A stretch of 64,000 nt of DNA from the NCBI GenBank assembly GCA_937912125.1, contig CALDOK010000002.1, positions 1 to 64,000 of the forward strand, in the 5' to 3' direction. This DNA is from an uncultured Pseudomonadota bacterium (GTDB lineage: Bacteria; Myxococcota_A; UBA796; JAFGLY01). The notes under the pieces are model-generated. The model had not been told where the DNA came from. It ran no database searches and saw nothing but the letters and a program-made list of their open reading frames with translations. Numbering within the stretch: position 1 is the first letter of the stretch; every line of letters starts with the position of its first letter. This document shows, piece after piece, positions 19,555 to 35,019 of the stretch. The translations under genes and the position numbers were made by a program.

Positions 19555-19596
19555 GGGCTGAGCCTATCGGGCCGGGGCTTGCAAGAGAAGCGATTT

Positions 19597-19608
19597 GAAC
19601 ATATGTTC
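19597..19608 (+). promoter_or_regulatory. Palindromic operator GAACATATGTTC, LexA-like
   Basis: A perfect 12-base palindrome (GAAC-N4-GTTC) lies five bases before the start of the RecA/ImuA-like gene, overlapping its likely promoter. GAAC-N4-GTTC is the LexA (DinR) box form of Gram-positives. Several deltaproteobacterial LexA boxes differ, so the repressor identity is inference from the damage-response nature of the gene. Confidence 0.6.
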
Positions 19609-19613
19609 AGTAT

Positions 19614-20288
19614 ATGTCCACCAGCCGCGCCAACGCCCTCGCCGAGCTGCGCCGGACCCTGTCGTCCCAGGGGGCGCTGGTGGATCCCGCGCCTCCTGGA
19701 GGTGTGCCCACAGGCTTCGCGTCCCTCGACGCTACGGCTGGCTGGCCCGCTCCAGGGCTGGCCGAGCTGTGTGGGCTGCCAGGCTCTGGTCGCCTGGGGC
19801 TGCTCATGCCGCTGCTCGTCCGCAGCACGCGCGCGGGGCGCTGGGTGGCCATCATCGACGTGCTCGGACGCCTGCATCCACCTGGGCTGGCGGGCGTGGC
19901 CTGGTCGCGCCTGCTGGTGGTGCGCCCCGGGGCCGAGCGGGCCGTGTGGGCGGCCGAGCAGCTGGCGGCCTCGGGGGCTGCTCCGGTTGTGGCGCTGCTC
20001 GATCCCATGCCCGTGGGGCGTGCGGGCTATCGCCTGCTGCGCGCGGCCGAGCAGGGCAGCAGCACCGTGGTGGTCGTAGGCGAGCGCAGTGAGCAGTCGC
20101 TCCCCGCCAGCCTGCGCCTACAGGCCCTGGGGCAGAGCCCCGGCACCCTCCACGTCCGCGTGGTCCGGGCCCCCGGCCGCCACCTGCCGGGTCGGGAGCT
20201 CGAGCTGCCTGCTCCGGTGCCCTGGTCGCCTCAGTCGTCCAGCAGCGTATGCTCGATCAACGCCTGCAGGGCATCGCCGCGCTGTTGA
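19614..20288 (+). CDS. ImuA/RecA-superfamily protein with altered Walker A
   Basis: 224 residues. The fold order fits the ImuA (SulA-like, RecA-related) family that partners ImuB and DnaE2 in error-prone repair: ALAELRRTLSSQG, then PTGFASLDATAGWPAPGLAELCG, P-loop GLPGSGRLG, strand WVAIIDV, and VVALLDP. The Walker A Lys is Arg (GSGR), so ATP use is doubtful; that is also seen in some ImuA-type proteins. No imuB or dnaE2 lies next to it. No ribosome binding site is evident before the ATG, and translation may be close to leaderless. The last about 20 residues (Ser/Cys-rich) overlap the convergent radical SAM-CoaB gene by 58 bases and look non-conserved. Confidence 0.7.
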   Translation: MSTSRANALAELRRTLSSQGALVDPAPPGGVPTGFASLDATAGWPAPGLAELCGLPGSGRLGLLMPLLVRSTRAGRWVAIIDVLGRLHPPGLAGVAWSRLLVVRPGAERAVWAAEQLAASGAAPVVALLDPMPVGRAGYRLLRAAEQGSSTVVVVGERSEQSLPASLRLQALGQSPGTLHVRVVRAPGRHLPGRELELPAPVPWSPQSSSSVCSINACRASPRC

Positions 20289-21730
20289 TACCAGGCGTGG
20301 GTGCTGGCGGTGACCAGGGCGACGCGCTCGCCCAGTCGGCCCAGGACGTTGGCGAAGACCAGGTCGGAACCCGTGCGCTGGGCCTGCTCGCGGGCGATGG
20401 CCACCAAGGCCTGGTCGCCGGTGTCGGGGGCGGCGGCCTTGAAGCTCACCAGGACCAGATCCGGACCTCCCCAGGCGCGGACCTGATCGAGGATCTTGGG
20501 GGTGGGGCCAAGGGACAGCTCCCAGCTGGCCTTGCCGCTCGAGACCTTGCCAGCGCTGGCCCGGGGGGCGTAGTCCCCCACCGCGGCTGCATGCACGACG
20601 ATGCCCCGGGGATTGGCGCGCACCCAGCGCTCCATGCGCGCCATCAGATCGTCGGTGCTCTCGAACAGCTCGGTGGACTCGATGCCGGCAGCCGTGGCAC
20701 GCAGCTGGGCCTGAGGGCTGGCGAGCAGGTGTACGGCGTGGTCGGGCTGCAGGGCCTGGGCGAGGGCTACACCTGTGCCGCCGCTCGAGTTCGCGGTGAT
20801 GCAGCGCATGCTGTCGATGGGGTTGCGGGTGGCCCCTGCGGTGACCAGCACGGGTCGCCGCCCCCAGCGGCCCGGGTGTACCGAGGCGGCCAGGCCGTGA
20901 CCGCGCAGCTGGGCGGCGATGGCCTCGAGCCGGGTGCGACCCAGCGCCCTGCAGGCGGGGTCTCGCGGCGCCCGCGCCACGGTGGTGACCTGGACCTCCC
21001 GGACTCGGCCTCCGCTCTGGACCACCTGCAGCAGGCGCTGCACCCAGGCGTGGATCTCGGCGGCGGTGGGCGCCTGGCCGTGGAGCTCGCTGAACAGGCT
21101 CTGGACGACCACCGGGCGCTGGCGGGACGCCAGCATCAGGTTGTCCAGGATGCGCTCGAGGGGGACCGTGCTGCAGTTGATGCGCTGGTAGGCCTGGGGT
21201 GTGCCGGCGTCGAGCTTGAACCACAGCTCTCCGCCCAGGGCGTGGAAGCGCGCCAGCGCCAGGCGCCCTGTAGGGGTGTGGAACCCCGAGCCGTTGCTCA
21301 GGAGCCGTAGCGGTACGCCCTCGAGCCGGTGCCGGGCTCGGGCCAGCCCCACCATGGCCACCGCGGCGGCCAGCTGTGGGCTGGTGCTGGGCTCACCGTC
21401 GCCGGCGAAGGCGATGTCTGCGACCCGGCGCAGCTCGTCGCGGACGGTGTCGAAGGGTGGGTGCTGCCACAGCTTGCCGGACCCCACCAGCCCCAGCAGC
21501 GCCTCGAGCTCGGAACCCAACCGGTCCAGCAGGACTGGCACGGCCTGCGGGGGGGCGCTGCGCTCCACCTGGCAGTAGCGACACAGGAAGCTGCAGTCGC
21601 GGCCCGGGTTGAGGTTGAGCCCGATGGAGAGGCCCTGGGCCCTGCGGGACACCACCGCGTAGACATAGCGATTCTGCCCGAGTTCACGCCGGTGATCGCG
21701 GAAGTCCAGCACGCGGGCTTTGGTGGTCAT
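20231..21730 (-). CDS. Fusion of radical SAM domain with CoaB-like (phosphopantothenoylcysteine synthetase) domain
   Basis: 499 residues. Residues 1-290 are a radical SAM enzyme: GLNLNPGRDCSFLCRYCQVE gives the CX3CX2C cluster (Cys46, Cys50, Cys53). FAGDGEPSTSPQL is the glycine-rich SAM-binding element seen in COG0731/TYW1-like proteins. Residues 293-499 match the CoaB/DFP domain: VLVTAGATRNPIDSMRCIT, NSSGGTG, AAAVGDYAPRAS, LGPTPKILDQV, VLVSFKAAA and DLVFANVLG. CoaB makes the amide between CTP-activated phosphopantothenate and cysteine. The usual CoaB partner, CoaC decarboxylase, is absent and replaced by the radical SAM part. The ORF runs without interruption, so this is not an assembly join of two frames. 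It is the third gene after two small lipoproteins. Substrate is unknown. Confidence 0.85.
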   Translation of the reverse strand: MTTKARVLDFRDHRRELGQNRYVYAVVSRRAQGLSIGLNLNPGRDCSFLCRYCQVERSAPPQAVPVLLDRLGSELEALLGLVGSGKLWQHPPFDTVRDELRRVADIAFAGDGEPSTSPQLAAAVAMVGLARARHRLEGVPLRLLSNGSGFHTPTGRLALARFHALGGELWFKLDAGTPQAYQRINCSTVPLERILDNLMLASRQRPVVVQSLFSELHGQAPTAAEIHAWVQRLLQVVQSGGRVREVQVTTVARAPRDPACRALGRTRLEAIAAQLRGHGLAASVHPGRWGRRPVLVTAGATRNPIDSMRCITANSSGGTGVALAQALQPDHAVHLLASPQAQLRATAAGIESTELFESTDDLMARMERWVRANPRGIVVHAAAVGDYAPRASAGKVSSGKASWELSLGPTPKILDQVRAWGGPDLVLVSFKAAAPDTGDQALVAIAREQAQRTGSDLVFANVLGRLGERVALVTASTHAWYQQRGDALQALIEHTLLDD

Positions 21731-21756
21731 GGCGGGAGGGGCGGGTGATCCCGCCG

Positions 21757-22095
21757 CTACTCTTCGCCTGCAGGCGGCTCGGTCACAGCCTCGCTGCCCG
21801 CCTCGCTGCCCGCCTCTAGGGCGGTGGCGTAGCGTTGCGAAGCCTGGGGATCGGAGGCGATGGCCACCAGCATGGTCTCCCAGCCCTCGCTGGTGAGGTC
21901 GTGGGCCTGGAGTACGGCGCTGTGCTGCTCAGGGCGCTGCTGCAGCTCACCGGCCACCACGATGGCCAGATCCACGTCCACCGCCTCCACCACGCTCTGG
22001 CTGAACGCCATCACGGGCTCGGGAGGTGGGCTTGGTTGCTCGGGGGGCACGGGCGAGCCGCATCCCCCGAGGAGCACGATCAGGAGGCCGAGCAT
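21757..22095 (-). CDS. Small lipoprotein
   Basis: 112 residues from the ATG at 22095. MLGLLIVLLGGC is a lipoprotein signal with lipobox LLGGC, so the mature protein is acylated at Cys12. A Pro/Glu-rich linker (SPVPPEQPSPPPEP) precedes a small folded part of about 85 residues (VVEAVDVDLAIVVAGELQQRP, WETMLVAIASDPQASQRYA) and an acidic, repetitive tail (EAGSEAGSEAV). The frame is open far upstream but lacks any protein-like sequence there, so the internal start is preferred. It begins 13 bases after the previous lipoprotein gene's stop, and the radical SAM-CoaB gene starts 26 bases after its own. Function unknown. Confidence 0.7.
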   Translation of the reverse strand: MLGLLIVLLGGCGSPVPPEQPSPPPEPVMAFSQSVVEAVDVDLAIVVAGELQQRPEQHSAVLQAHDLTSEGWETMLVAIASDPQASQRYATALEAGSEAGSEAVTEPPAGEE

Positions 22096-22108
22096 CACGA
22101 CCTTCGGA

Positions 22109-22498
22109 CTACTTGCTGGACTTCTTCGAGGAGCTTCCGCCCGAGGAGCTCTTGCCACCCGAGGAGCTCTTGCCGCCCGAAGAGCTCTTGCCGCCCGAGG
22201 AACTGCCACCCGAGCTCCGGCCGCTGCTGGTGGAGCCGCTGGTGCGGACCACCGGGGTGGTGGTCGTCGGGGTGGTGGTGGTGGGCTTGTCTTCGACCTC
22301 TTCCTCGACGTCAGCTGCGTTGGCCTGCTGGTCGTCGGGCACGGGGGCGGTGACGGGGGGAGGAGGGGCCACGGGGGGGGGAGGAGGAGGCTCGGTGGGG
22401 ACGGCCTGAACCTCGACAGCTTCGTCAGCGTCGCCGCCGCCACAAGCGAGTGCGAAGCCGAGCAGCAGGGAGAACGCGATGAGGAGACGGAGTCTCAT
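22109..22498 (-). CDS. Low-complexity lipoprotein with Ser/Gly/Lys repeat tail
   Basis: 129 residues from the ATG at 22498, with AGGAG nine bases upstream. Signal and lipobox are MRLRLLIAFSLLLGFALAC. The mature chain starts acidic (GGGDADEAVEVQ), continues as Pro-rich (PPPPPPVAPPPP) and Thr-rich segments, and ends in SSGGK repeats. The repeats are encoded by 18-base units at about 22139-22202. No folded domain is visible. Such basic, flexible tails bind anionic surfaces such as peptidoglycan, polysaccharide or DNA; this is inference. A run of nine G at about 22373-22381 encodes part of the proline stretch. Confidence 0.7.
   Translation of the reverse strand: MRLRLLIAFSLLLGFALACGGGDADEAVEVQAVPTEPPPPPPVAPPPPVTAPVPDDQQANAADVEEEVEDKPTTTTPTTTTPVVRTSGSTSSGRSSGGSSSGGKSSSGGKSSSGGKSSSGGSSSKKSSK
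22139..22202. repeat. 18-base tandem repeats encoding the SSGGK tail
   Basis: About three and a half copies of an 18-base unit (cttgccgcccgaggagct with few changes) inside the lipoprotein gene; each adds six residues. Copy number could vary by slippage. Confidence 0.7.
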
Positions 22499-22602
22499 GG
22501 GACACTCCTGGTGTGGGAGAGAGAGGGGTTTCAGAGCCGTGGGATTCGACACCTAGGCGATAATCCACTGTTCGAACCACGGCCACGCATGCACGCTGTG
22601 TA

Positions 22603-23013
22603 TCAGCCGAGATCGACCACCCTGCCGAAGCCGGGGATCTCGTCGCGAAGCAGAGCCTCGACACCCATCTTCAGGGTCATGCCCGCGCCGGGACAGCCTC
22701 GGCAGGCGCCTTGAAGCCGCACGTGCACGTCGGCGCCGCGGATCTCCACCAGCTCGATGTCGCCGCCATCAGCGCGCAGGGCGGGTCGGACCTGTTGGTC
22801 GATCACCTGCTGCACGAGCGCCGCGTCGAGGCTGGGCGCCTCGATACTGGGCGCTTCGATACTGGGCGCTTCGATACTGGGCACGACGCCCTGTGCATCG
22901 GCGCCTGGGGGGCCGGCTGGGGGGCTCGGGCGCGGGATCGGCGGTGTGGTCGTGGGCTGGGGAGAGCGGCCCAGGAGCCGACGGAAGCCGGCGGAGAGCT
23001 TGTCGCGAATCAT
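22603..23013 (-). CDS. NifU C-terminal-domain (Nfu) iron-sulfur scaffold with repeat linker
   Basis: 136 residues. The C-terminal 75 residues are an Nfu domain that carries or delivers iron-sulfur clusters: VIDQQVRPALRADGGDIELVEI and the CXXC motif ACRGCPGAGMTLKMGVEALL. The N-terminal half is unusual: a basic helix (IRDKLSAGFRRLLGRS), a Pro-rich stretch and three PSIEA repeats from identical 15-base units at 22834-22878. It lacks the NifU N-terminal scaffold domain and the NfuA A-type domain, so it is a minimal Nfu. It lies upstream of the radical SAM gene in the same direction (105 bases from the first lipoprotein). A supply link to that cluster enzyme is possible but not shown. Confidence 0.88.
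   Translation of the reverse strand: MIRDKLSAGFRRLLGRSPQPTTTPPIPRPSPPAGPPGADAQGVVPSIEAPSIEAPSIEAPSLDAALVQQVIDQQVRPALRADGGDIELVEIRGADVHVRLQGACRGCPGAGMTLKMGVEALLRDEIPGFGRVVDLG
22834..22878. repeat. Three 15-base tandem repeats in the Nfu gene
   Basis: Three copies of gggcgcytcgatact in direct tandem, in frame, each encoding five residues of the linker (PSIEA on the minus strand). The first copy differs at one base. Confidence 0.85.
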
Positions 23014-23073
23014 GAGCTCCTCAGCAAAGCGCGCCGACGCCCGAAGGCGCCGGCGCAGCTGAAAGTGGGACGC

Positions 23074-23646
23074 TTAGGGCTTGGTGGGGATGCCGGCGGC
23101 CTGGGCGGCGGCCATGATGGCGTCGCGCTGGCTCTCGTAGAACAGCCAGTGGGCCACGAAGACCATCGGGGCGGCGAGGAAGATGGGCAGGTAGCAGCAC
23201 AGGGCGGCCAGGAAGACCACGATCATCGCGGCGATGTAGAACATGATGATGGCGCCGATGTTGCTCTTGGCGTGGGCCAGCGAGGCCTTGGCGGCGTCGA
23301 AGGCGGCGAACTTGCCTTCAGCGGCGAGCATGGGCATCCAGAAGAGGAGCAGGGCGACGACGGGGGCGCCGACGAAGCACAGCAGGGAGCCGAGGGAGAT
23401 GCCGCCGACCCACACGATCACGGCGACCAGGTCGTCCATGAAGTTGTCGAAGTTGAAGAGATCACCGATGGAGGGGCCTTCCTGGCGCACGATGGCGTTG
23501 CGCACGGCGCGGTAGGCGTTGGGCATGAGGATGACGCCGAGGCCGCCGGTGAAGGAGTTGAAGATGCCAAAGACGAGGATGAAGATGATCCAACCGACGA
23601 GGTTGGCCTTCACGATCGGCCAAGCGGCCTTGAAATGATCGAACAT
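23074..23646 (-). CDS. Integral membrane protein of unknown function
   Basis: 190 residues with about four to five membrane helices: WIIFILVFGIFNSFTGGLGVIL, VAVIVWVGGISLGSLLCFVGAPVVALLLF, and IGAIIMFYIAAMIVVFLAALCC with following YLPIFLAAPMVFVAHWLF. Both termini are short and polar. GEGP-type loops (RQEGPSIGDLF) resemble small DUF4013/DUF975-like membrane proteins of uncertain function; the match is by general look only. AGGAG lies near the ATG at 23646. Upstream is the START-like gene in the same direction, 83 bases away; downstream the Nfu gene begins 60 bases later. Confidence 0.75.
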   Translation of the reverse strand: MFDHFKAAWPIVKANLVGWIIFILVFGIFNSFTGGLGVILMPNAYRAVRNAIVRQEGPSIGDLFNFDNFMDDLVAVIVWVGGISLGSLLCFVGAPVVALLLFWMPMLAAEGKFAAFDAAKASLAHAKSNIGAIIMFYIAAMIVVFLAALCCYLPIFLAAPMVFVAHWLFYESQRDAIMAAAQAAGIPTKP

Positions 23647-23729
23647 GGATGACTCCTGGGGACCGGCTCGGCCGGGATGGAAGTAGGCGTTTATCGCGCG
23701 ACGCGCGGCATGGTAGCGGTCGCGGCCGC

Positions 23730-24308
23730 TCAGTGCAAGGTGGACGATTCCGCGGGCTCGGCGGGGGTAGTTTCCTGGGCAGAGGCGGCGGGTGCGCGCC
23801 GGAGGATGAGGTCTCGCACCGCCTGCATCGTGAGGCGCGCCGAGCGCTTCACGTTCTTCGAGATGACCAGATCGGGCACGGGGAGGTCGATGCCCACCGA
23901 GAGCCTGTAGATGATGTGGGTGCCGCCAGCCACGGGCAGCAACTGGATGTCAGCGTCGTAGCGGGTGAACGAGTCGGACTCGAGCAGGGTCTCGCGCCAG
24001 CCGCCGGCCGAGGGGCAGCGCTGGGTGCTGTAGTGCAGGGGTTCGAACAGACCCCGGGAGACAAAGCTGAGCTGCTTACAGCGGCCGCGAGCTTGCACGT
24101 CCATGGACTGAACGTCGGGGGTGAAGCCGACGAAGGTGTATGGATCATCGAGGATCGCCCTGACCTCTGCCTCGGTCGCAGGGACCAGCGTGCGGGTGAT
24201 GATGGTGCCGGGCTCCTCGGTCTGGACCAGAGGCTCGTTGGGGGTCTGGGCCAAGGCGCCCGCACTCAGGGACAGCCCCGCCAAGACGCAGAGCAACCCT
24301 CGCGTCAT
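23730..24308 (-). CDS. Exported SRPBCC/START-like protein
   Basis: 192 residues with signal peptide MTRGLLCVLAGLSLSAGALAQ, which favours the start at 24308 over an ATG at 24341. The body fits a START/SRPBCC lipid-binding fold: TRTLVPATEAEVRAILDDPYTFVGFTPDVQSMDV is the first strand-helix unit, a beta-sheet follows, and the long C-terminal helix is KRSARLTMQAVRDLILRR. These proteins bind hydrophobic ligands in a deep cavity; the exported form may carry lipids or polyketides in the periplasm, which is inference. A minus-strand TATACT (plus 24364-24369) could be its -10 box. The next gene upstream, mscS-like, ends 103 bases before. Confidence 0.72.
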   Translation of the reverse strand: MTRGLLCVLAGLSLSAGALAQTPNEPLVQTEEPGTIITRTLVPATEAEVRAILDDPYTFVGFTPDVQSMDVQARGRCKQLSFVSRGLFEPLHYSTQRCPSAGGWRETLLESDSFTRYDADIQLLPVAGGTHIIYRLSVGIDLPVPDLVISKNVKRSARLTMQAVRDLILRRAPAASAQETTPAEPAESSTLH

Positions 24309-24411
24309 GGGCGTCTGGGCACGTCCGATGGCTGCACTCACCTGCTCACTCCGTAGCTGCGTGAGTATAGCCTATGTGCTCCGTCCACGCTGATGGATCG
24401 AGCGTTCCAGC

Positions 24412-25629
24412 TCACTCCTGAACATCGTGTTCACAGGGTCCCATGGGGGGGCCGAAGACCTCCTCCACCAAGTCCACCATGGTGCCCCGGAATCGGTCGG
24501 CGTAGCGGGCATCCAGCAGGCGGGCCTTGACGCGCCAGCGCTTGGGATCGTCGGCTTGGCGGTAGACCTGCGGATCCTCGCCTGGCGCCAGGTAGGGGTT
24601 GAGCAGCACCAGCTCACGGATGGTGTTGCGGGCCTCGACCGAGGACCGGCAGGGCGGAACCAGCAACAGCACCGAGACGGGAGCGTACAGCTCGGGGTCC
24701 AGCTCGAGGGTGGCGCTAGTGAGCTTGCGGTTGGGGATGGCGATGTCGGCGCCCTCGTCCGTGCGCAGCCAGGTGACCCTGAAGGTCATGCGGGTGAGGG
24801 TGCCGGTGATGCCCTCGAAGCGCAGGCGTTGCCCGCTGCGGAAGCTGCGCTCGAGGGTGAAGATGAGCCCCACGAGCACGTCCTGGACGACCTCGCGCAC
24901 CGACCAGCCGACGGCCAGGGCGGTGCCCACCAGCACGTAGGCTACCGCAGGTGACCAGGCGGCAGGCACCAGGTGGAGCAGGCCCAGGAAGGCGACCAGC
25001 AGGGCGCCGCTGCGGCAGATCACCACGACGGTCTTGAGCACGCCGGGCAGGATCCCGTGGGCCGCCAGGCGCCCCAGGGGGCGCTCTGCCAGGTTCGCCA
25101 GCCCTACGCAGGCCAGGGTGGCCAGCAGAAGCAGCAGCGCTCGCAGGAGGTTGGGCTTTGGGGGGCTGGGCAGGAGGGCGGCGGCCAGGTCGGCGGCCAG
25201 GTCCGGGCCAGGGGACACCGAGGCCGAGGGCGTCGCCGAAGGGGCCAGCTCGATGGCCTCTGGCGTGGGCGTGGAGACGATGGCGGGCGCCTGTGGGACC
25301 AGGACAGCGGAGGCGTGGGCAGGCGCAGGCTCTGGGTCTGGCGCAGGTGCCGGTGTTGGCGCTGAGGCTGGCTGGGGCTCCGGGACCGCGACATCCTGGG
25401 TCGCGGGCTCGGGTGAGGGCAGCGGGACAGGGGCGCTGGCCTGCTGGAGGGGCTGCTGCGGCGCGGGCTCGGGCGCCAGCTCGAGGACGGGCTGGGGGGC
25501 CGGGGCGTCGACGGCCGACACCGCCACATGGGGCAGAGGGGCGCTGTGAGTGGCGGGCTGCTGGGCGTAGGTGGGCGCGGCCAGCGCGAGGCCGACGGCG
25601 ACGGAGAGGGTATGGAGGGCGCGCGTCAT
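24412..25629 (-). CDS. MscS-family mechanosensitive channel with Pro/Ala-rich periplasmic region
   Basis: 405 residues. A signal peptide (to about 22) is followed by about 115 residues of Pro/Ala/Glu/Val low-complexity sequence, then three membrane helices (about 160-250). The pore helix and MscS beta domain follow (RFEGITGTLTRMTFRVTWLRT, IPNRKLTSATLE), then the alpha-beta cytoplasmic domain ending about residue 400. It opens under membrane tension and releases solutes on osmotic downshock. Its ATG overlaps the stop of the giant antiporter fusion by four bases, so it is translated in the same operon as the K+ genes, which makes osmotic relief the logical job. The long disordered periplasmic part is unusual for MscS. 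Confidence 0.9.
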   Translation of the reverse strand: MTRALHTLSVAVGLALAAPTYAQQPATHSAPLPHVAVSAVDAPAPQPVLELAPEPAPQQPLQQASAPVPLPSPEPATQDVAVPEPQPASAPTPAPAPDPEPAPAHASAVLVPQAPAIVSTPTPEAIELAPSATPSASVSPGPDLAADLAAALLPSPPKPNLLRALLLLLATLACVGLANLAERPLGRLAAHGILPGVLKTVVVICRSGALLVAFLGLLHLVPAAWSPAVAYVLVGTALAVGWSVREVVQDVLVGLIFTLERSFRSGQRLRFEGITGTLTRMTFRVTWLRTDEGADIAIPNRKLTSATLELDPELYAPVSVLLLVPPCRSSVEARNTIRELVLLNPYLAPGEDPQVYRQADDPKRWRVKARLLDARYADRFRGTMVDLVEEVFGPPMGPCEHDVQE

Positions 25630-28600
25630 CCCATCAAGCTCCTCTCACGTAGAACCTGGTGGATGGCCCCCGCGAGCTCGGGGGCGAAGCGGTAGCAGCA
25701 CTCGTCCACGCGTTGCAGCAGCCCGCTGTGCTCGAGCCGGGTGAGGTAGCCGGCGCTCCAGGTGGCCTCGGTGCGGAACTGGCGGGCGTGGTCCTCGGCG
25801 GTGATGCGGCCCTGGCGGGCCAGCTGCCTGAGGGTGATCAGGTCGTCGAGGGGCAGCCTGCGGATAGCCTCCAGGGGGGGCTCGGGCAGCCCGCCGATGG
25901 TGATGGTGTCGGTGCTGCTGCCGATGCCGGCGACCGCGGCGAGCCACAGCCGCAGGGCATCGCTGAGGATGCCGCCGGTGGCCTCGTGCAGCTGCTCGAA
26001 GAAGTGCCGCTCGTGGAGATCTTCTTCGGCCGCCTTGCGTGTGAGCAGCTCCTGCAGCCACCAGCCGAGGTGGCCCGTGGGACGCTGGAAGTGGAGACGA
26101 TAGCCAGACATGGCGTGGCGCAGCAGCAGGGTGTTGCGCAGCTCGTCCACCGACAAAGCCCCCAGATCGAAGCGCTCGCAGAAGATGTCCTCGAGGGGCA
26201 GCACGCGCTTGGCGTAGGACCACACCGGCCGCTCGGTGCTGACGAGCCAGCCGTTGCCCCCGCGATCCGCGAGGACCCCGTCGATGAGGGCGCGCAGGGG
26301 GGCGAAGCCTCCGGGCCGAATGGTGAACAGCCAGTGCACGCCTTCGACGACCATGATGTCGCCGCGGCCCGCGCGCATGGGCGCCAGCAGCCGCTCCTCG
26401 ACCTCTTCGACCGTGGCCTGGGCCTCGAAGCGGACGCGATGGATCGCCGCTTGCTCGGGCAGGCCCCGCAGCAGCGTGTTGATCACGGCGGCGTTGCCGA
26501 TGCCCGCGACCCCCACCACGGCGACTGTACGGCTGGGGCTGCCGCGGCCCGTGAGGGTGCGGCGCACCCGCTCAACGTCAGCCTCCCTGCCCGCCAGCAG
26601 ATCCCCGCCCTCGAGGCCCTGGTCGCTGAAGAGGCGACGGTAGACCGTGGGGATGGGGACGCGCTCGGCGGGGGGGGTGAAGGTGTGTGGGTGCTCCTTG
26701 GCCTCGGCCTCGAGGTCCCGCAGGCCCAGCACGGCCTGGACGCGAGCCAGGCTGCGTGGTCCGAGGGCCACGGTGAGCACCTGACCAAGCTGCTCCGCGG
26801 CGTTGACCAGCTCGCGCAGGGCGCCGTGCAGCTCGTGGCCTCCGGCCGAGGCGGCGTCCAGGGCCAGGCGCAGCTTGAGCTCGCTGTGTCGGCCCTCGAC
26901 CAGGATGTCGGTGAGCCGCTCGAGGTTGCCCGTGACCGCCTGGCGCACGGCCAGACCGGCCTGGTCGGGGATGTCTTGTGCGGTGAGGTGGAGGGCGCTG
27001 GCGCGGTTGGCCAGGCGCTGCAGCGTGCCCACCAGCATGTCCCGCAGCAGCTCGATGGTCTCGTCCTCCAGGAGTTCGTCCGGGAGCACGTCCAGCTCGG
27101 CGCCAGCGAGATCGCTGTTGAAGGCCAGCACGCGCTGGACCTCGTCGATCCCAACGTAGGTCTCGTCGATGCGCGTCCGGATGGCGCCCAGGGAGACGGT
27201 CAGGTCGCGGCCGGCCTCGGCTTCCATGTAGGACCGCACCGCCTCGCGGAAGTGCAGGTCGCGGGTCTGGGGCCTGGGCGGGAAGCTGCGCCCGCGGGGG
27301 GCGGGCGGGTCCGTCACCACCAGGAAGCGGTCGGTGAGATCGTCGATCTCGGTGCTCAGGGCGCGCAGCAGCGGCCCCACGGCGCTCTCGTTCTTGAGGG
27401 AACCACGCAGCTTCTCTGCGATGGTCAGGATGTCGTGCACCGTGTGGGCAAGGGGGCCGGTGGCGTCCAGGATGCCCTGGCGGATGAGCTCGCGGCTGGG
27501 CTCGGGAGTCCCGAGGAGGGTGCGGAGCTTGGTGATGGAGGCGGGCAGCCCGGCGTCCAGGCGATCCAGCTGGGCCAGCAGGCGCCCACGGATGTCCCGC
27601 TCGAGGCCCGTGGCCGCGTCCTCGACCGCCTCGCGCACGTGGACGCGCAGCCGCACCATCTCCAGCTCCATGGCCAGGCTGCTGGCGATGCCCCGGGTGA
27701 GTTCCCTGGACACCGAGAAGCCTTCCTCGAGCTGCTTCAAGGCCTGCTCCCGCGCGTCGTAGATGCGGCTGAAGCGGTAGCGGGAGGAGGGCAGCTCGGG
27801 CGTGCCGGCGCTGTCCACCATGCCGATCAGCTCCCGATAGGCGCGGCCGAGGGCGGAGGCGGTGACGCGCACCGCGTCGTCGGCCATGCGGTCGACCTCG
27901 CGCGCGGCCAGGGCGAAGTCCTCCTCGACCTCGGTGCGGATGCTCTCCAGGGCCTGCTTGCGCTGCTCGAGATCGTAGTCCTTGTCCAGCAGGCTCTCGA
28001 GGGCCTGGTTGTAGGACTCGAACACCGCCCGCGCCCGCGCCAGCAGGTGGCGCTCTCCCATGGCGATCAACGCGGCGGCCTCGATCAGGTGGGTGGGGGC
28101 CACCCCCGACATGCAGTAGCGAGTGAGTGCGCGCAGCTCCACGACCCGGGTGTCTGCGGCCGGGCTGCCCAGGATGCCGAGCACACGCCGGCGAGCGCGG
28201 GCCCACCAGCGGTGAGCCGAGAGGCGCAGGGTGTCGTCCTCTCTCGCGTCGGCCCAGTGGGGATCGAGGGGCACCTCCAGGGCTTCGGGCGTGTCCTCGA
28301 TGCTCCGGTCTACCTGATCCAGGATGTCCTGGAAGGTCCGCAGATCCTGGCGGAAGTCCGTTGTGGCCGCGCGGTCGAGCAGGAGCCGCTCCCAGCGACT
28401 GGCCAGCTCACCGCGCTCCCGGCGGATGGAGTTGCGCCATGCGTCGGTGTGCTCGGCGCCGACGGTCAGGGTCGTGTGCCGGTGAGCGCGCAGGAACTCT
28501 CGGCGCAAGAGGCCCAGGAAGCGGGCTGCCTGCTCGCGACGGCGGGTGATGGCGCCGGCTCGGAGGTCCCGCACGATGCCATGCAGGTTGCTCTCGAGGT

Positions 28601-30116
28601 GCTTGCAGAGGTGGCGCAGGCGGTCGGAGCGGGTGGTGGGGGGAGGCCCCCAGGCGTTGCGTCGGCTGCGGCCGGGCTCCGGCTGCCACTCGGGCAGGCG
28701 TTGATCGTGGTCCCGGGTGGCGTCGTCGTCGGGGGCGTCGGCCTCGTCCACCACCGCGCTGGGAGTCCCGTCGGGCCCCTCGCTGGCGGCGGTCGGGGCC
28801 TGGGCGACGCCCTGGCGCTTGGCGCGGACCTCGCCAACAAGCCCCAGCGCGCCCTGAAGCAGGGCAGGACCCACCAGCTCGTTGAGGCCGATGGTGGCCA
28901 CGGCCAGGGTCTCGAAGGTGGCGCCCCAGCCGCCGAAGGCGTGGCCGGCCACCATGGCGAGGCTCAGTGCGATGCCGGCCTGCGGTCCGAAGGTCATCCA
29001 GCCGTAGCGCCCCAGGCCGTCGGGACCCCGGGTGAGCTGGGCTCCTAGGCGCGTGCCCAGCCAGAGGCTGACCAGGCGCCCGCCGAAGATCAACAAGGCG
29101 GCGGGCCAGAGCGTGGCCAGTGCGTCCAGGTGGAGCCCCGCGCCAGCGATGAAGAAGAAGACTACGTAGATGGGCAGCGAGAGCCGCTCCACCACGGCGA
29201 AGAGGGCGACGCTGCGGGGGGAGGCGTTGGCGAAGGTGAAGCCCGCCACGATGAAGACCAGCACGGGCTCGGTGCCCAGCTGCCCCGCCAGGTGAGTGAC
29301 GACGAAGCACAGGCCGATCACCAGCAGCAGCAGGTGGGTGCCGACGAAGCGCAGGTAGGCCCACAGCACCAGGCCCAGCAGCAACCCCAGCCCGATGGAG
29401 CCGCCCAGGGTGCCGAGCACGTCAATGATCAGGCGTCCGTCGCCGGCGCTCGCTCCCACCAGGCGCTGGGCCATGGCCAGGGTGGCCGCGAAGACCGCCA
29501 CCACCACCACGTTGTTGAGGATGGAGATGCCGAGCACCTTGTCGGTGACCGGGCCGCTGGCGCGCACGCCGTGGATGACCGCGATGGTGGCCGCGGGGGA
29601 GAAGGCGGCCGCGATGGTGCCCAGCAGCAGGGCCACCGCCAGGACCCGCGGGAAGCCGCCCTGCTGCAAGAAGTCCAGGCCGAGCCCTGGGATGGGCAAG
29701 GACAGCAGCATGACCAGCAGCCCGACGCCCAGCATCACGGCGGCGAACTGGGCCGCGATGACCCCGGCGATGACGCGGAAGCCGGCCTGCAGGTCCCGGA
29801 TGCGGAGGGCGCCGCCCGCGCTGAGGCCGATCAGGGCCACCGCCAGGACGTTGAACAGCCCCAGGTCGCGGACCACCACCTGGTCGACCAGGCCCAGCAC
29901 ATAGGGCCCGCACACCAGGCCGGTGACCAGATACCCCGTGATGTGGGGCAGGCGGATGCGCTCGGCGAGCTCGCCCAGGGTGTAGGCGGCCAGGACGATG
30001 AAGCCAAAGGCCGCCATTGAAGCGGGGTTGACCGTCCCGTCGAGGGGCGAGATCACCAGGGGCAGCCCGGTCATGATGCCGAAGAGCACCGCGACGATGA
30101 CGAGCTGTCGGAGCAT
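25626..30116 (-). CDS. CPA2 antiporter fused to long helical region and degenerate STAND-like P-loop domain
   Basis: 1496 residues, about three times a normal antiporter. Residues 1-440 are a KefB/CPA2 sodium- or potassium-proton exchanger with about 12-13 helices (LAAYTLGELAERIRLPHITGYLVTG; ILNNVVVVAVFAATL). An acidic linker (about 455-495) leads to roughly 620 residues of predicted helix without a KTN/RCK domain, the usual CPA2 regulator. From about 1180 comes LLAGREADVERVRRTL and a P-loop-like VVGVAGIGNAAVI at about 1200-1210. Here the Walker A Lys is Asn, so ATP is probably not bound in the normal way. MVVEGVHWL resembles Walker B. A winged-helix-like end closes it. The gene lies between trkH (3-base gap) and mscS (4-base overlap). 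An STAND-like sensor controlling ion exchange is inference. Confidence 0.85.
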   Translation of the reverse strand: MLRQLVIVAVLFGIMTGLPLVISPLDGTVNPASMAAFGFIVLAAYTLGELAERIRLPHITGYLVTGLVCGPYVLGLVDQVVVRDLGLFNVLAVALIGLSAGGALRIRDLQAGFRVIAGVIAAQFAAVMLGVGLLVMLLSLPIPGLGLDFLQQGGFPRVLAVALLLGTIAAAFSPAATIAVIHGVRASGPVTDKVLGISILNNVVVVAVFAATLAMAQRLVGASAGDGRLIIDVLGTLGGSIGLGLLLGLVLWAYLRFVGTHLLLLVIGLCFVVTHLAGQLGTEPVLVFIVAGFTFANASPRSVALFAVVERLSLPIYVVFFFIAGAGLHLDALATLWPAALLIFGGRLVSLWLGTRLGAQLTRGPDGLGRYGWMTFGPQAGIALSLAMVAGHAFGGWGATFETLAVATIGLNELVGPALLQGALGLVGEVRAKRQGVAQAPTAASEGPDGTPSAVVDEADAPDDDATRDHDQRLPEWQPEPGRSRRNAWGPPPTTRSDRLRHLCKHLESNLHGIVRDLRAGAITRRREQAARFLGLLRREFLRAHRHTTLTVGAEHTDAWRNSIRRERGELASRWERLLLDRAATTDFRQDLRTFQDILDQVDRSIEDTPEALEVPLDPHWADAREDDTLRLSAHRWWARARRRVLGILGSPAADTRVVELRALTRYCMSGVAPTHLIEAAALIAMGERHLLARARAVFESYNQALESLLDKDYDLEQRKQALESIRTEVEEDFALAAREVDRMADDAVRVTASALGRAYRELIGMVDSAGTPELPSSRYRFSRIYDAREQALKQLEEGFSVSRELTRGIASSLAMELEMVRLRVHVREAVEDAATGLERDIRGRLLAQLDRLDAGLPASITKLRTLLGTPEPSRELIRQGILDATGPLAHTVHDILTIAEKLRGSLKNESAVGPLLRALSTEIDDLTDRFLVVTDPPAPRGRSFPPRPQTRDLHFREAVRSYMEAEAGRDLTVSLGAIRTRIDETYVGIDEVQRVLAFNSDLAGAELDVLPDELLEDETIELLRDMLVGTLQRLANRASALHLTAQDIPDQAGLAVRQAVTGNLERLTDILVEGRHSELKLRLALDAASAGGHELHGALRELVNAAEQLGQVLTVALGPRSLARVQAVLGLRDLEAEAKEHPHTFTPPAERVPIPTVYRRLFSDQGLEGGDLLAGREADVERVRRTLTGRGSPSRTVAVVGVAGIGNAAVINTLLRGLPEQAAIHRVRFEAQATVEEVEERLLAPMRAGRGDIMVVEGVHWLFTIRPGGFAPLRALIDGVLADRGGNGWLVSTERPVWSYAKRVLPLEDIFCERFDLGALSVDELRNTLLLRHAMSGYRLHFQRPTGHLGWWLQELLTRKAAEEDLHERHFFEQLHEATGGILSDALRLWLAAVAGIGSSTDTITIGGLPEPPLEAIRRLPLDDLITLRQLARQGRITAEDHARQFRTEATWSAGYLTRLEHSGLLQRVDECCYRFAPELAGAIHQVLRERSLMG

Positions 30117-30119
30117 GGG

Positions 30120-31622
30120 CTAGCGCTTCCAGAAGCGGGGGTTGAGCAGGGCGAGCAGGGTGAAGAACTCGAGACGACCCAGCAGCATCAGGCAGGAGAG
30201 TACCAGCTTGGCGGCCGGGGAGAAGAACCCGTAGTTGTCGATGGGGCCCACCAGGCCGAGGCCGGGGCCCACGTTGGCCACGCAGGCCAGGGAGGCCATG
30301 AAGGCGGTGGTGAGGTCCACCGGGTCGAGCGCGGCCACCAGCACCGCGCCCACCAGGAAGGTGAGCAGGTAGACGGTGATGAAGGCGAAGACCTCGGAGA
30401 GGGCGCTGGCGGGGTAGGGGCGACCATCCACCATCACCGGAGCGACCAGCTTGGGGCGATGGACGCGGCGGAGCTCGATGAGCAACACCTTCACGATGAT
30501 GATGATGCGGATGACCTTCATGCCCCCCGCCGTGCTGCCCGCCGAACCGCCGACGAAGTAGCACAGGATGAGCATCAGGCGGGACAGCGCGGGGTAGACC
30601 TCGAAGTCGTCCGTGCCGAAGCCGGTGGTGCTGATCACGGCCGCCACCTGGAACGATGCGAAGCGGAATGCCTGTAGCAGGCTCTCCTTCAGGGGCCAGA
30701 TGTTCAGCGCCACCACCACTACAACCAGGGCGTAGAACGCCAGGTAGACGCGCAGCTCGGTGTTCCTGAGCAGCAGGCGCCAGGAGCGCTTGTGTGATGC
30801 CTCGAAGATCAACCCGAAGTTCATGCCCGCGATGACCATGAACGCCACGATGATCATCTCGGCCGGCACGTTGTGGAAGCCGGCGATGGAGCTGTTGAGG
30901 GTCGAGAAACCCCCGGTGCCCATGGTGGAGAAGGAGTGGGCGATGGAGTTGAAGGGGTCCATGCCCGCCAGCATGAGCAGGAGGACTTCGGCCAGGGTGA
31001 TGACCAGGTAGATGCGCCACAGGGCCTTGGAGGTGTCGCGGATGCGGGGCACCAGGCCCTGGCTGCGCGGCCCAGGTACCTCGCTGTGGTACATGTGCTT
31101 GCCGCCCACCCCAAGGGCCGGGAAGATGGCGACGAAGAGCACCACCAGGCCCAGCCCCCCCAGCCAGTGGGTGAGCAGGCGCCACAGGTGCAGCGGCTGG
31201 CTGAGGCGCAGCTCGATCTCGGTCAGGATGGTGGCGCCGGTGGTGGTGAAGCCGCTTGTGGCCTCGAAGATGGCGTCGGGCAGGGAGAAGTCAGCCCCCA
31301 ACAAGAAGGGGAGCCCGCCGTAGGTGCCCAGGGCCACCCAGGCCAGCGCCACCACCAGCAGCCCCTGCCGGCGACCGAAGTTCTCGGTGGCCTCTCGGCG
31401 GGAGCCCCAGCGCAGCAGGAGCCCGCTGCCCGCCGTGATCAGGGCCGAGAGCACCATGGCCCAGACACCGGCCCAGCTGTCGGCGAAGAGCCGACCGACC
31501 ACGGCGGTGCCCAGCATGAAGACCGCCAGCACGATGAGCAGCGCCCCCAGCGGCCGCGCAGCGCCCACGAGCAGGCGGACCTGCTGGGCGGTGACGCGAC
31601 GACGGGAGTGCCTCGATCCCAT
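30120..31622 (-). CDS. trkH: Trk/Ktr potassium transporter membrane subunit TrkH
   Basis: 500 residues with about 10-12 membrane helices. All four selectivity-filter loops of the TrkH/KtrB fold can be read: SGFTTTGAT, FSTMGTGGFST, STTGFGTDDF and CVANVGPGLG, each with the central Gly that lines the K+ path. KAIHHFTMGTGG-like spacing and GGSAGSTAGGMKVIRI match the family. It imports K+ under control of TrkA, encoded one base upstream of its start. An N-terminal basic patch (MGSRHSRRRVT) precedes helix 1. The gene is the third of five in the K+ operon. Confidence 0.97.
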   Translation of the reverse strand: MGSRHSRRRVTAQQVRLLVGAARPLGALLIVLAVFMLGTAVVGRLFADSWAGVWAMVLSALITAGSGLLLRWGSRREATENFGRRQGLLVVALAWVALGTYGGLPFLLGADFSLPDAIFEATSGFTTTGATILTEIELRLSQPLHLWRLLTHWLGGLGLVVLFVAIFPALGVGGKHMYHSEVPGPRSQGLVPRIRDTSKALWRIYLVITLAEVLLLMLAGMDPFNSIAHSFSTMGTGGFSTLNSSIAGFHNVPAEMIIVAFMVIAGMNFGLIFEASHKRSWRLLLRNTELRVYLAFYALVVVVVALNIWPLKESLLQAFRFASFQVAAVISTTGFGTDDFEVYPALSRLMLILCYFVGGSAGSTAGGMKVIRIIIIVKVLLIELRRVHRPKLVAPVMVDGRPYPASALSEVFAFITVYLLTFLVGAVLVAALDPVDLTTAFMASLACVANVGPGLGLVGPIDNYGFFSPAAKLVLSCLMLLGRLEFFTLLALLNPRFWKR

Positions 31623-31623
31623 G

Positions 31624-32967
31624 TCAGAACGACCGCTTGCGGAAGAGGCGCTCTACGCTGGCGCGAACGCCAGAGGTGGTCAGCACCACGACGGTGCTGC
31701 CGGCGCTGACCACGTCGTCTCCGCTGGGGACGCGCACGCCCTGGGCGTCGACGATGGCGGCGACGATGGCCCCCCTGGGAAACTCGAGGCGCTTGAGGGG
31801 CACGCCCACCACCCTGCTGTCGGGCATGGTGGTGAACTCGAGCACCTCGGCTTGGCCGCCCTCGAGCACGGTGAGGGACTGCAGCTCGGTGAGCCGTGCG
31901 TAGCGGAGGATGTGGTCGGAGGCTACGCGCCGGGGGGACATGACCACGTCGATGCCCAGCTGCCGGTAGATGTCCATGTAGTCGGAGCGCTGCACCAGGC
32001 AGAGGGTGCGCTCGGCTCCGACCCGCTTGGCCAGCAGGCCCGACATGAGGTTGGCCTCGTCGTCGTGGGTCAGGGCGCAGAACAGATCGAAGTCACCGAC
32101 CTGCTCCTCCTCGAGCAGGGTGAGATCCGTGCCGTCGCCGTGGAGCACGGTGACGCCAGGCAGGCCCACGGCCAGGCGCTCGGCGGTGGCGCGGTCCTTC
32201 TCCAGGAGCACCACCTCGAGGCCGCCAGTGGCCATCATGCGGGCGGTGGCCAGGCCGATCTCGCCGCCTCCGACCACGAAGACCTTGGCGGCCTCGCGGC
32301 CACCGCAGAAGAGGCCCTCGAGCTTCTCCATGCGGCCGGCGTGGCCGATGAGGTAGCAGCGGTCGCCGGCCAGGAGCACGTCAGAGCCGCCGGGCACGAA
32401 CAGCTCACCGTCGCGCACCACCGCGGCCACCAAGGAGGGCTTGGGGAGGGTGAGCTGGGCCAGTGGCTTGTGCAGCACCTTGGAGTGAGCCGGCAGCTCG
32501 AGCTGGACGAGCTCGAGGCGGTTGCCGGCCAGGCCCAGGACGTCGAGGGCGCCGTGGGAGCGGGCGACCTTGGCGATCTCCGAGGCCACCAGGATGCGCG
32601 GATTGACCACCACGTCGATGCCCAGCAAGCCGTGGTAGACGCCCTCCTCGCGGTCTTCGAACTCCGAGCCCTGCAGCCGGGCGATGGTGCGCCGGGCGCC
32701 CAGGTGCTTGCCCGCGATGCCCGCGACCAGGTTGACCTCGTCGTCGTCGGTGACGGCCACGACGAGATCGGCCTCGGCGGCCCCTGCTTCGCCCAGCAGG
32801 CGCAGGTTGGCGCCGTAGCCCTGGACCGTGGCCACGTCGTGGCGCTCTTCGATGACGGCCAGGGCGTCGGCGTCGCGATCCACCGCCACCACCTCGTGCT
32901 GCTCGCTGGCCAGAGCGGCCACCACGTGGCGCCCCACCATGCCCATGCCTACGACGATGGCGTACAT
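31624..32967 (-). CDS. trkA: Trk system NAD-binding regulatory protein TrkA
   Basis: 447 residues, made of two RCK units. Rossmann motifs are GMGMVGRHVVAAL near residue 8 and VVGGGEIGLATARMM at about 233. Each is followed by the acidic ribose-binding position (VVAVDRDADAL; VVLLEKDRATA) and by a C-terminal RCK_C-like strand set. TrkA binds NAD(H) and ATP/ADP and gates TrkH. It overlaps the upstream antiporter stop by one base and the trkH start follows after one base, so all three are translated together. Length and double-RCK form are as in E. coli TrkA. Confidence 0.96.
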   Translation of the reverse strand: MYAIVVGMGMVGRHVVAALASEQHEVVAVDRDADALAVIEERHDVATVQGYGANLRLLGEAGAAEADLVVAVTDDDEVNLVAGIAGKHLGARRTIARLQGSEFEDREEGVYHGLLGIDVVVNPRILVASEIAKVARSHGALDVLGLAGNRLELVQLELPAHSKVLHKPLAQLTLPKPSLVAAVVRDGELFVPGGSDVLLAGDRCYLIGHAGRMEKLEGLFCGGREAAKVFVVGGGEIGLATARMMATGGLEVVLLEKDRATAERLAVGLPGVTVLHGDGTDLTLLEEEQVGDFDLFCALTHDDEANLMSGLLAKRVGAERTLCLVQRSDYMDIYRQLGIDVVMSPRRVASDHILRYARLTELQSLTVLEGGQAEVLEFTTMPDSRVVGVPLKRLEFPRGAIVAAIVDAQGVRVPSGDDVVSAGSTVVVLTTSGVRASVERLFRKRSF

Positions 32968-34229
32968 CAGCTCGCCTCCTTGGGGCCCGCCGCGGCCGTG
33001 ATGTCACCGGCGTCGATCAGGAAGCCCTTGAGCAGCCGCGCGGACCACAGCTCGTTCAGGACGATGGAGAACAGCACTGCGGTGAAGACCCAGTCCACGA
33101 AGGCACCTTCGTAGACCAGGCGGAGGTTCAGGGCCATGGCCACCGCCACCTCGCCGTGGCCCAGCAGCCCTCGCCCCAGGTCCCTGCGTATGGAGGGCCC
33201 CATGGACAGCGCGGCCAGCCAGCCGCCGCCGAGCTTGCCCAGGCTGCGGACCGAGACGAACAGCAGCGCCAACACGAAGGCCGGCCAGGACACCGGGGTC
33301 CACAGGGCGCCAGCGAAGATCAGCAGCAGCAGCACCATGGGCTTGTGGGTGCGCAGGATCACCGGCAGGACCCGCCGAGCATGGCGGCTGGTGTTGCCCA
33401 GCACCATGCCCAGCACCAGGCTGACGAGGAGCGGGGAGAGGTGCAGGTACCAGGCCGCGCCGCTGGCGAAGACGATGATGCCGGTGAACGCCAGGAACAG
33501 GTGGTTCTCGTCATCTTCTTCGCCCAGGAAGAAGTGGAACACCACCCCCATGATCACCCCCAGCAGCACCATGACCACGTACCACTCAGTGGGGGTGAAG
33601 GGGCGCCCCAGGCCCGACTGCTGGGCCGGGTGGAACAGGCAGAAGATGAGCCCGAAGACCAGGATACCCACGAGCTCGTCGATGGTGCCGCCGTCCTGTA
33701 GCAGCCGGCTGTGGCGGCCCTGGGTGGGGAAGCGCCGGTGTACCAGCTCCCAAGCCGCGGGGGAGGAGACCGCGGCCGTGGCGCCCAGGAACAGGGCGGC
33801 CATGGACGCCTGCCCGGCCTCGAGCCCCAAGAAGCCCGTGCCCGCCAGCACCCAGCGGCAGACACCGTAGACCAGGCCGAAGGTGACCCCCGCCTGGACG
33901 GTGCTTAGGGTGAATGCGCCGCTGCGGCTGTTGAGCATCGCCCGCAGATCGAACTGCAGCCCGTAGACCAGCCCGGCCCAGCCGATGGCCAGGCTGATCA
34001 GCGGAGCCAGCTGGCGCAGCACCTCGTGATGCACGACGCCTTGCCAGGCCACGGGGTGGCCGGTCAGCGCGGTGACCAGGGCGGGCAGCTCGGGACCCAC
34101 CAGCACGCCCAGCAGGATGTACTCACCGCCCGTGGTGTACAGGAAGCGAGCCTGCGCTTTGCCGAGCACGAAGTGCGCGAGGAGCGTGGCCGCTACGACG
34201 AGCGCCAGCAGCGTGATGGCAGTCAGCAT
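32967..34229 (-). CDS. CPA-type cation/proton antiporter membrane protein
   Basis: 420 residues with about 11-12 membrane helices and no cytoplasmic regulatory domain. The N-terminal GGEYILLGVLVGPEL and the helix pair near LGATAAVSSPAAWELV resemble the Na+/H+ exchanger (CPA) fold, with the unwound-helix position at SSP. ILRTHKPMVLLLLIFAGALW and GHGEVAVAMALNLR match the second inverted repeat. Proton- or sodium-coupled cation exchange is family knowledge; the ion is not known. It starts the K+ operon, 24 bases after an upstream lipoprotein gene, and its stop overlaps trkA. It therefore gives the operon a second, unfused antiporter. Confidence 0.82.
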   Translation of the reverse strand: MLTAITLLALVVAATLLAHFVLGKAQARFLYTTGGEYILLGVLVGPELPALVTALTGHPVAWQGVVHHEVLRQLAPLISLAIGWAGLVYGLQFDLRAMLNSRSGAFTLSTVQAGVTFGLVYGVCRWVLAGTGFLGLEAGQASMAALFLGATAAVSSPAAWELVHRRFPTQGRHSRLLQDGGTIDELVGILVFGLIFCLFHPAQQSGLGRPFTPTEWYVVMVLLGVIMGVVFHFFLGEEDDENHLFLAFTGIIVFASGAAWYLHLSPLLVSLVLGMVLGNTSRHARRVLPVILRTHKPMVLLLLIFAGALWTPVSWPAFVLALLFVSVRSLGKLGGGWLAALSMGPSIRRDLGRGLLGHGEVAVAMALNLRLVYEGAFVDWVFTAVLFSIVLNELWSARLLKGFLIDAGDITAAAGPKEAS

Positions 34230-34253: not shown

Positions 34254-34958
34254 CTAGATGCAGAGGGTGGTGAGGTTGACCCACTCGTACTGAGACGGAC
34301 CGCCATAGTCGTCCGTGGCGTCGGGGAGCACCGTGCCCTTGGCGTAGCTCGAGTCGAAGGAGAAGTATCCGTCCCAGAGGATCGCGTGGTAGACGAGCAG
34401 GGCGTTGTCCTGGTTGGGCTCGCCGGACATGGTCAGGGTGTCGAACTTGAAGACCACGGTGTCGTAGGCGTTCTGGGAGCCCGCGTCGGTGGCGATGATG
34501 CCGTCGTAGCCGATGTTGCAGCCGTTCTCGACCTCGGTGTTCTCGTTGTAGGATCCCCAGTACTCTTCCTCGCAGGTGCCGCAGGGATCGTTGGCGCCCC
34601 AGGCGTAGCGGGTGGCCACGCCCCGGTAGTCGAACTGATCGACGCAGTCGCCGTCGAAGTCGTCCTTGCCGTGGAACCAGAACCAGCGCTCCGAGACGTA
34701 CAGCACCATCTCGTCGTCGCCGCTGATGCTCTCCTGGACCGAGTAGCCTTCGGCCAGGTGGTAGACCGCGGACTTGCCGTCTTCGCAGCCGGAGGCGTCC
34801 CAGTCCCACTTGGTCTGGTAGTCGTCCGGCACCAGCGGGTGGGAGGTGGGGGCGGTGTTGGAGTCGGCCGTGTCGTCCTTCTTGACCTTGTCGTCGTCGC
34901 CGCAGGCGATGAGCAAGGAGACGACCAGGAAGAGTGTACCGATGGGCGCCGTGCGCAT
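34254..34958 (-). CDS. Secreted lipoprotein with several Cys and Trp/Tyr-rich domain
   Basis: 234 residues. The signal (MRTAPIGTLFLVVSLLIAC) has the lipid Cys at 19, followed by an acidic stretch (DDDKVKKDDTADSN). The body contains six to eight cysteines and aromatic strands (ERWFWFHGKDDFDGDC, EEYWGSYNENTEVENGC, YHAILWDGYFSFDSS), suggesting a disulfide-bonded beta domain. Family not recognised. The start at 34958 is set by GGAGG ten bases upstream; the frame is open above it. A TTGTTC/TATCAT promoter lies at 34990-35019. The K+ operon begins 24 bases after its stop in the same direction, so it may be the first gene of that transcript. Confidence 0.78.
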   Translation of the reverse strand: MRTAPIGTLFLVVSLLIACGDDDKVKKDDTADSNTAPTSHPLVPDDYQTKWDWDASGCEDGKSAVYHLAEGYSVQESISGDDEMVLYVSERWFWFHGKDDFDGDCVDQFDYRGVATRYAWGANDPCGTCEEEYWGSYNENTEVENGCNIGYDGIIATDAGSQNAYDTVVFKFDTLTMSGEPNQDNALLVYHAILWDGYFSFDSSYAKGTVLPDATDDYGGPSQYEWVNLTTLCI

Positions 34959-34989
34959 GAGCGGCCTCCGGGCGGCTGGGGGTGGCAGC

Positions 34990-35019
34990 ATGATACCGGC
35001 TCCCTGGGGAGCGGAACAA
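34990..35019 (-). promoter_or_regulatory. Promoter of the lipoprotein gene, possibly of the K+ operon
   Basis: Minus-strand TTGTTC (35014-35019), 18-base spacer, TATCAT (34990-34995), about 32 bases before the ATG at 34958. It may also be the main promoter of the five-gene K+ cluster downstream. Confidence 0.45.

Follow-up and report, generated by a model that had tools for sequence, protein, structure and literature searches.

Gene content of the locus

The DNA analysed here (the window, 64,000 nucleotides) carries a minus-strand run of five genes, CPAx-TrkA-TrkH-giant-MscS, in which adjacent genes overlap or are separated by gaps of at most 4 bp (Table 1). This operon is present throughout the group. 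The fourth gene encodes an unusually large protein, here called the giant. In the protein encoded downstream of it, the MS_channel beta domain was found after the pore helix, and both parts of a Trk system, the TrkH transporter and a TrkA with two KTN units, could be identified upstream. For CPAx no Pfam match was obtained, and its assignment as an antiporter is described below.

Table 1. Features of the operon and of the giant protein in the window.
Feature	Position	Strand	Evidence
MscS-family channel, start codon overlaps the stop codon of the giant by 4 bp	24412..25629	-	Pfam MS_channel_2nd (PF00924) 2e-12
Giant protein of 1496 aa with a CPA-fold domain, a helical region and a P-loop/winged-helix module	25626..30116	-	ORF, Pfam, codon composition, full-length homologues
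Giant, residues about 1415-1496: winged helix (MarR-like in paralogues)	25629..25874	-	AlphaFold2; EutK winged helix 1.8e-4
Giant, residues about 1178-1393: AAA_22/STAND-like P-loop domain with lid	25938..26585	-	AlphaFold2, Foldseek, AAA_16 in relatives, hhalign
Giant, Walker B acid Glu1258, in MVVEG (most relatives have Asp)	26343..26345	-	Alignment
Giant, degenerate Walker A GVAGIGNAA (residues 1202-1210; Asn1208 at 26493-26495)	26487..26513	-	Sequence, family alignment
Giant, residues about 498-1130: long helices with two short beta hairpins	26727..28625	-	AlphaFold2
Giant, residues 1-430: NapA/NhaP-fold antiporter-like membrane domain	28827..30116	-	Pfam 4e-20; Foldseek NapA
Giant, Asn201-Asn202 at the ion-binding pair (ND in NHE/SOS1, QD in KefC, DD in NapA); essential Asp lost	29511..29516	-	Profile alignments; role of Asp, PMC11150392
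TrkH potassium transporter	30120..31622	-	Pfam/NCBIfam
TrkA (two KTN/RCK units), regulator of Trk	31624..32967	-	Pfam/NCBIfam
Partner antiporter CPAx, 420 aa, acid kept at the ion site (DE)	32967..34229	-	hhalign, PDB profile match

A predicted lipoprotein of 245 aa is encoded 24 bp upstream of CPAx (34254-34991, minus strand). It has no Pfam match, and a weak relative was found at the same place in locus L073. Elsewhere on the minus strand, small proteins with short in-frame repeats are encoded at 22109-23013 (SSSGGK units, and IEAPS units before a NifU-like domain), and a 517-aa protein with six copper-binding MopE-type motifs is encoded at 4296-5849, where tandem DNA repeats are located at 5138-5508.

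The giant is a conserved fusion protein

The reading frame of the giant is open over 1496 codons, and its GC content at codon positions 1, 2 and 3 (0.75, 0.47 and 0.93, respectively) is of the coding type. An antisense ORF of 1129 aa lies opposite to it (25659-29048, plus strand), and comparable long antisense ORFs were observed in some relatives (e.g. L121). Because the giant has both the coding-type codon signature and relatives, the antisense ORF was set aside as a gene and is probably a by-product of the high GC content.

Many genomes of the order to which this genome belongs carry full-length relatives of the giant with 30-45% identity, and such relatives also occur in further families of the phylum Myxococcota. 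The giant was not found in any of the sampled genomes of one family of that order (f2). When contigs were scanned with the single giant sequence of the window no match was obtained, and it was the alignment-based scan of 84,980 species that yielded 43 giant loci, with titles that belong to the Myxococcota/Deltaproteobacteria sphere or to unresolved bacterial bins. The named relatives are metagenome assemblies of Myxococcota/Deltaproteobacteria, and the assembly that carries the giant has a size of 9.27 Mb. The giant and its relatives have 1488 aligned columns in common. Since the same architecture occurs in full-length relatives, the fusion is neither due to chance nor an assembly artefact.

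Two AlphaFold2 models, of residues 490-1496 (mean pLDDT 87) and of residues 1-1140 (pLDDT 85), were used for the assignment of domains. Together with the relatives, the modelling confirmed the original prediction that an antiporter domain is followed by a helical region, a P-loop domain and a winged helix. The expectation that this domain order has not been described also held, as no such family was found in Pfam, NCBIfam or PADLOC. A search of open-licence papers returned nothing relevant on the fusion, the operon or a pair of an NTPase and MscS. We regard the architecture of the giant and its gene association as very well supported.

The helical region, predicted to span 620 residues, was recovered in the model as long helices. 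Searches of solved structures and of Pfam gave no credible relative of it, and in a comparison with the N-terminal part of the unfused paralogues (see below) hhalign aligned the C-terminal module only. In the model the region looks like two similar halves, each composed of long helices, a beta hairpin and again long helices, and an internal duplication is possible.

The membrane domain has lost the ion-binding aspartate in the window's branch

The Pfam family Na_H_Exchanger matches residues 44-373 of the giant at 4e-20. The modelled membrane domain resembles NapA, MjNhaP1 and KefC, with a TM-score for NapA of 0.76-0.78 of the target; Foldseek matches to the multi-domain models span part of the query only (query-normalised TM-score ~0.15-0.3) and were taken for the domain fold only. 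The domain had been classified as a CPA2 antiporter. Its CPA fold was confirmed, but by key residue and fold it is as close to NapA/NhaP/NHE as to KefC-type CPA2 proteins. As had been noted, the C-terminal KTN/RCK domain (TrkA_N) is missing: Pfam gave no such match in the giant, and the P-loop/winged-helix module is present instead.

In profile alignments the motif ILNNVVVV of the giant aligns with the ND pair of SOS1/NHE and with Q155-D156 of KefC, which places Asn202 at the position of KefC D156. The essential ion-binding Asp (KefC D156, NapA D157) is thus absent in the giant. In KefC, the D156N variant showed no density for bound K+ and its K+-induced signal was below that of the wild type (PMC11150392). 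As the essential Asp is lost here and also in close relatives, the giant of the window is unlikely, judged from its sequence, to exchange ions alone, and the proposal that its own antiporter is gated in a new way is unlikely to apply to this protein.

The distribution of the Asn was followed across the family. It is limited to the branch of the window, i.e., the window itself, L069, L073, L072, L037, L121, L068/L132 and L071/L036, where the ion sites of L068 and L071 were scored, for tree purposes only, from two joined predicted-protein pieces on different contigs or in different frames. In the rest of the giant family the pair is mostly KD, and Asp or Glu is present outside the Asn branch. 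L070 and L035 are nested inside the Asn-Asn branch of the window and carry an Asp in this TM5 pair, which suggests that the acid was regained. Therefore, the function of the ion site may be changing rather than lost.

CPAx is a related antiporter-like protein with an acidic ion site

CPAx and the membrane domain of the giant are homologous according to hhalign (99.5% over 373 columns). In addition, CPAx gave a PDB profile match to NHA2, and its DE aligns with the DD of NHA2 (PMC8850199). At the aligned position an acid is present in CPAx, in DE in the window and in SD, GD or AE elsewhere. In several deep relatives (L048, L050, L056, L057, L133) CPAx is without the acid and the giant has it, and no locus was seen in which the acid is lost in both proteins, a pattern that could be due to chance.

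Neighbours were counted at unique loci with enough sequence. CPAx was found upstream of the fused giant in 38 of 43 cases, and TrkH was located directly upstream of 34 of 45 fused giants versus none of the 24 genes that encode the module without an antiporter. The deepest fused genes (L056, L057, L133, L186, L187, L170) have CPAx upstream and no Trk. Trk thus probably joined later to the antiporter pair and the fused form.

Antiporter pairs were also observed without the module, as tandem overlapping genes for a CPAx-like protein and a protein like the membrane domain of the giant (L136, 4303-6902; L137, 4940-7104; L135, 2052-4624). In L136 and L137 they adjoin a divergent CPAx-TrkA pair, so that the operon is split there.

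The C-terminal module has an AAA/STAND-type fold and a variable Walker A lysine

The C-terminal part of the giant had been predicted to resemble a STAND or AAA_16 NTPase on the basis of the motifs AGREADVERV and GVAGIGNAA, both of which are present. Structure prediction indeed returned a P-loop alpha/beta core, a lid and a winged helix, and Foldseek matched this part with ORC1/Cdc6, RuvB, archaeal ATPase_2 and the NLR Sr35. AAA_16 was detected in 7 of 14 homologues, and in the homologous module of unfused paralogues AAA_22 and MarR_2 were above the Pfam cut-offs, MarR_2 in one paralogue. The Walker B acid is present in the giant and the Walker A Lys (GxxxxGK[ST]) is absent; its replacement by Asn, which had also been predicted, was confirmed.

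However, the loss of the Lys is not a fixed feature of the family. Among 51 members the Lys is found in 32, and N, Q, R, S, A, G, L or V is found in the other 19; the commonest form is GVDGVGKAA, and a canonical GK[ST] occurs in 5 of the 51. On a maximum-likelihood tree, built leaving out these columns, the state of the Lys changes at least 6 times. The position is therefore drifting within the family. This speaks for a family that can do without normal ATP hydrolysis, and against the gain of a special Asn by one lineage. The module may still bind nucleotides, since the loss of the Walker Lys alone leaves binding possible. A repeated co-loss of the ion-site Asp and the Walker Lys was also considered and is unsupported on the tree, which shows only two changes of the Asp and hence two independent pairs (p = 1).

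The module occurs without an antiporter and is linked to MscS

The P-loop/winged-helix module is also the C-terminal end of about 30 other membrane proteins of Myxococcota that have no antiporter domain. The modules of the giant and of an unfused paralogue are clearly homologous (hhalign, 99.7%, E 2e-25). Of 331 sampled Myxococcota genomes, most gave matches to the module profile at E <= 1e-5, with a few copies each, although matches at the weak end of the list (E above about 1e-20) are likely generic AAA proteins. A second copy is present in the genome of the window itself (L168, contig C68, about 18000-34000), as part of a 1292-aa protein without an antiporter, which has an MscS gene 4 bp downstream. 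In this paralogue Walker A is intact (SDRGMGKTT).

An MscS gene is located directly downstream of 41 of 43 fused giants and of 29 of 31 unfused module genes. As it accompanies both forms, and TrkH is not found upstream of the unfused one, MscS goes with the module whatever its N-terminus is, and the fused form is the one that the antiporter pair accompanies, according to the CPAx and giant neighbour counts. No other gene is linked as strongly to the C-terminal module as that of the MscS channel, which the original prediction had left aside.

Discussion

The content of the operon points to a function in potassium and turgor control. With Asn at both presumed active sites, for the ion and for the nucleotide, the giant of this genome resembles a sensor or partner subunit rather than a working exchanger. 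Our preferred reading, to which we give somewhat less than even credence when the whole chain is considered, is that the giant is a regulatory membrane subunit of a potassium/turgor-control operon of Myxococcota and not a stand-alone antiporter. On the basis of gene adjacency, its membrane domain would pair with CPAx in a hetero-oligomer in which CPAx carries the ion exchange, and the membrane half of the giant itself would serve as a scaffold or as a sensor of ions, pH or turgor. Together with CPAx, the giant could still act like a regulated exchanger. The helical region would signal to the C-terminal module what state the membrane part is in, and this module, again because of gene adjacency, may contact or control the neighbouring MscS channel, by which potassium uptake and exchange would be linked with emergency solute release. 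Ancestrally, the module was probably a switch driven by nucleotides, and in the branch of the window it might act through binding and a change of conformation, with no normal ATP hydrolysis.

A bolder version, which we consider doubtful, is that a two-gene device, undescribed so far and widespread in Myxococcota, places MscS under the control of a membrane-anchored AAA/STAND-like switch. One branch would have grafted this switch onto the antiporter pair and Trk, so that potassium uptake, exchange and release would be combined in a single complex, and in the lineage of the window the switch would be a double pseudo-enzyme, neither exchanger nor NTPase, with no role other than that of sensor and scaffold. 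According to the usual description, membrane tension and osmotic crowding are what gates MscS channels. If the device exists, its conserved NTPase-type switch partner would suggest that some MscS channels are under active cellular control. The operon would be a case in which one assembly may run potassium uptake, potassium/proton exchange and emergency solute release. Furthermore, the Asp that some members have lost naturally corresponds precisely to the residue that was engineered in KefC D156N, which makes the idea of a transporter-derived sensor directly testable.

Alternatively, the giant could be an active K+ or Na+/H+ antiporter whose fused C-terminal domain gates it allosterically, in the way in which RCK acts on KefC or the cyclic-nucleotide domain on SLC9C1; such gating was the original idea. 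The fold is intact and so is most of the antiporter core, and as the ion-site Asp (KD) is kept in most members this may hold for the family at large. However, the giant of the window and seven relatives lack this Asp, the operon holds a second antiporter gene with an acid at the ion site, and the module has MscS as its neighbour even where no antiporter is present, which makes this explanation unlikely.

It is rather improbable that the C-terminal winged helix binds DNA, so that the giant would be a membrane-anchored transcription regulator which senses ions or turgor and controls the operon, with the adjacency of MscS reflecting regulation of a shared operon. Both the modelled winged helix and the match of one paralogue to MarR_2 would fit with this, but most members lack a basic winged helix (net charge -6 to +7; +1 in the window), and in AAA/STAND proteins such as ORC/Cdc6 and NLRs a winged helix is part of the NTPase module itself.

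The STAND/NACHT-like relatives of the P-loop and the adjoining channel as a possible effector are also reminiscent of a device for defence or cell death whose module opens MscS upon sensing an invader. This is very unlikely, as PADLOC gave no match for the giant and weak ones only for paralogues, the operon is made of potassium housekeeping genes, and the module is not patchily distributed. That the giant is a decaying remnant in which both the antiporter and the NTPase domain are losing function, as the two lost key residues and its absence from the sampled genomes of family f2 might imply, is hardly credible given the intact frame, the columns shared with relatives, the confident structure model and the kept operon spacing.

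The reading of the giant as a regulatory membrane subunit can be compared with several known systems. Like the E. coli K+/H+ exchanger KefC, which has a role in potassium homeostasis, the giant combines a CPA-fold membrane domain with a fused cytosolic regulatory domain of nucleotide-binding type, but it has 620 helical residues and an AAA/STAND-like winged-helix module in place of RCK/KTN, and NN in place of QD. The best structural and profile matches of its membrane domain are NapA/NhaP/NHE/SOS1, from which it differs by Asn202 instead of the essential Asp; to our knowledge, no such C-terminal module occurs in these families. A large sensor or regulatory region behind the exchanger domain is also found in sea urchin SLC9C1, where it consists of a voltage sensor and a cyclic-nucleotide domain. 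With AAA_22/AAA_16/STAND NTPases and ORC1-Cdc6 the giant shares the P-loop core, lid and winged helix in the same order, but it lacks the Walker A Lys, is membrane-anchored and is paired with MscS. The downstream gene product has the beta domain of MscS/MscK channels; unlike in these, the channel is encoded by a single gene beside the switch module and is not fused to a sensor domain of its own. The unfused Myxococcota paralogues (e.g. L168) share with the giant the homologous C-terminal module and the MscS gene directly downstream, whereas their N-terminal part is different, with few TM helices and no antiporter, and their Walker A is mostly intact.
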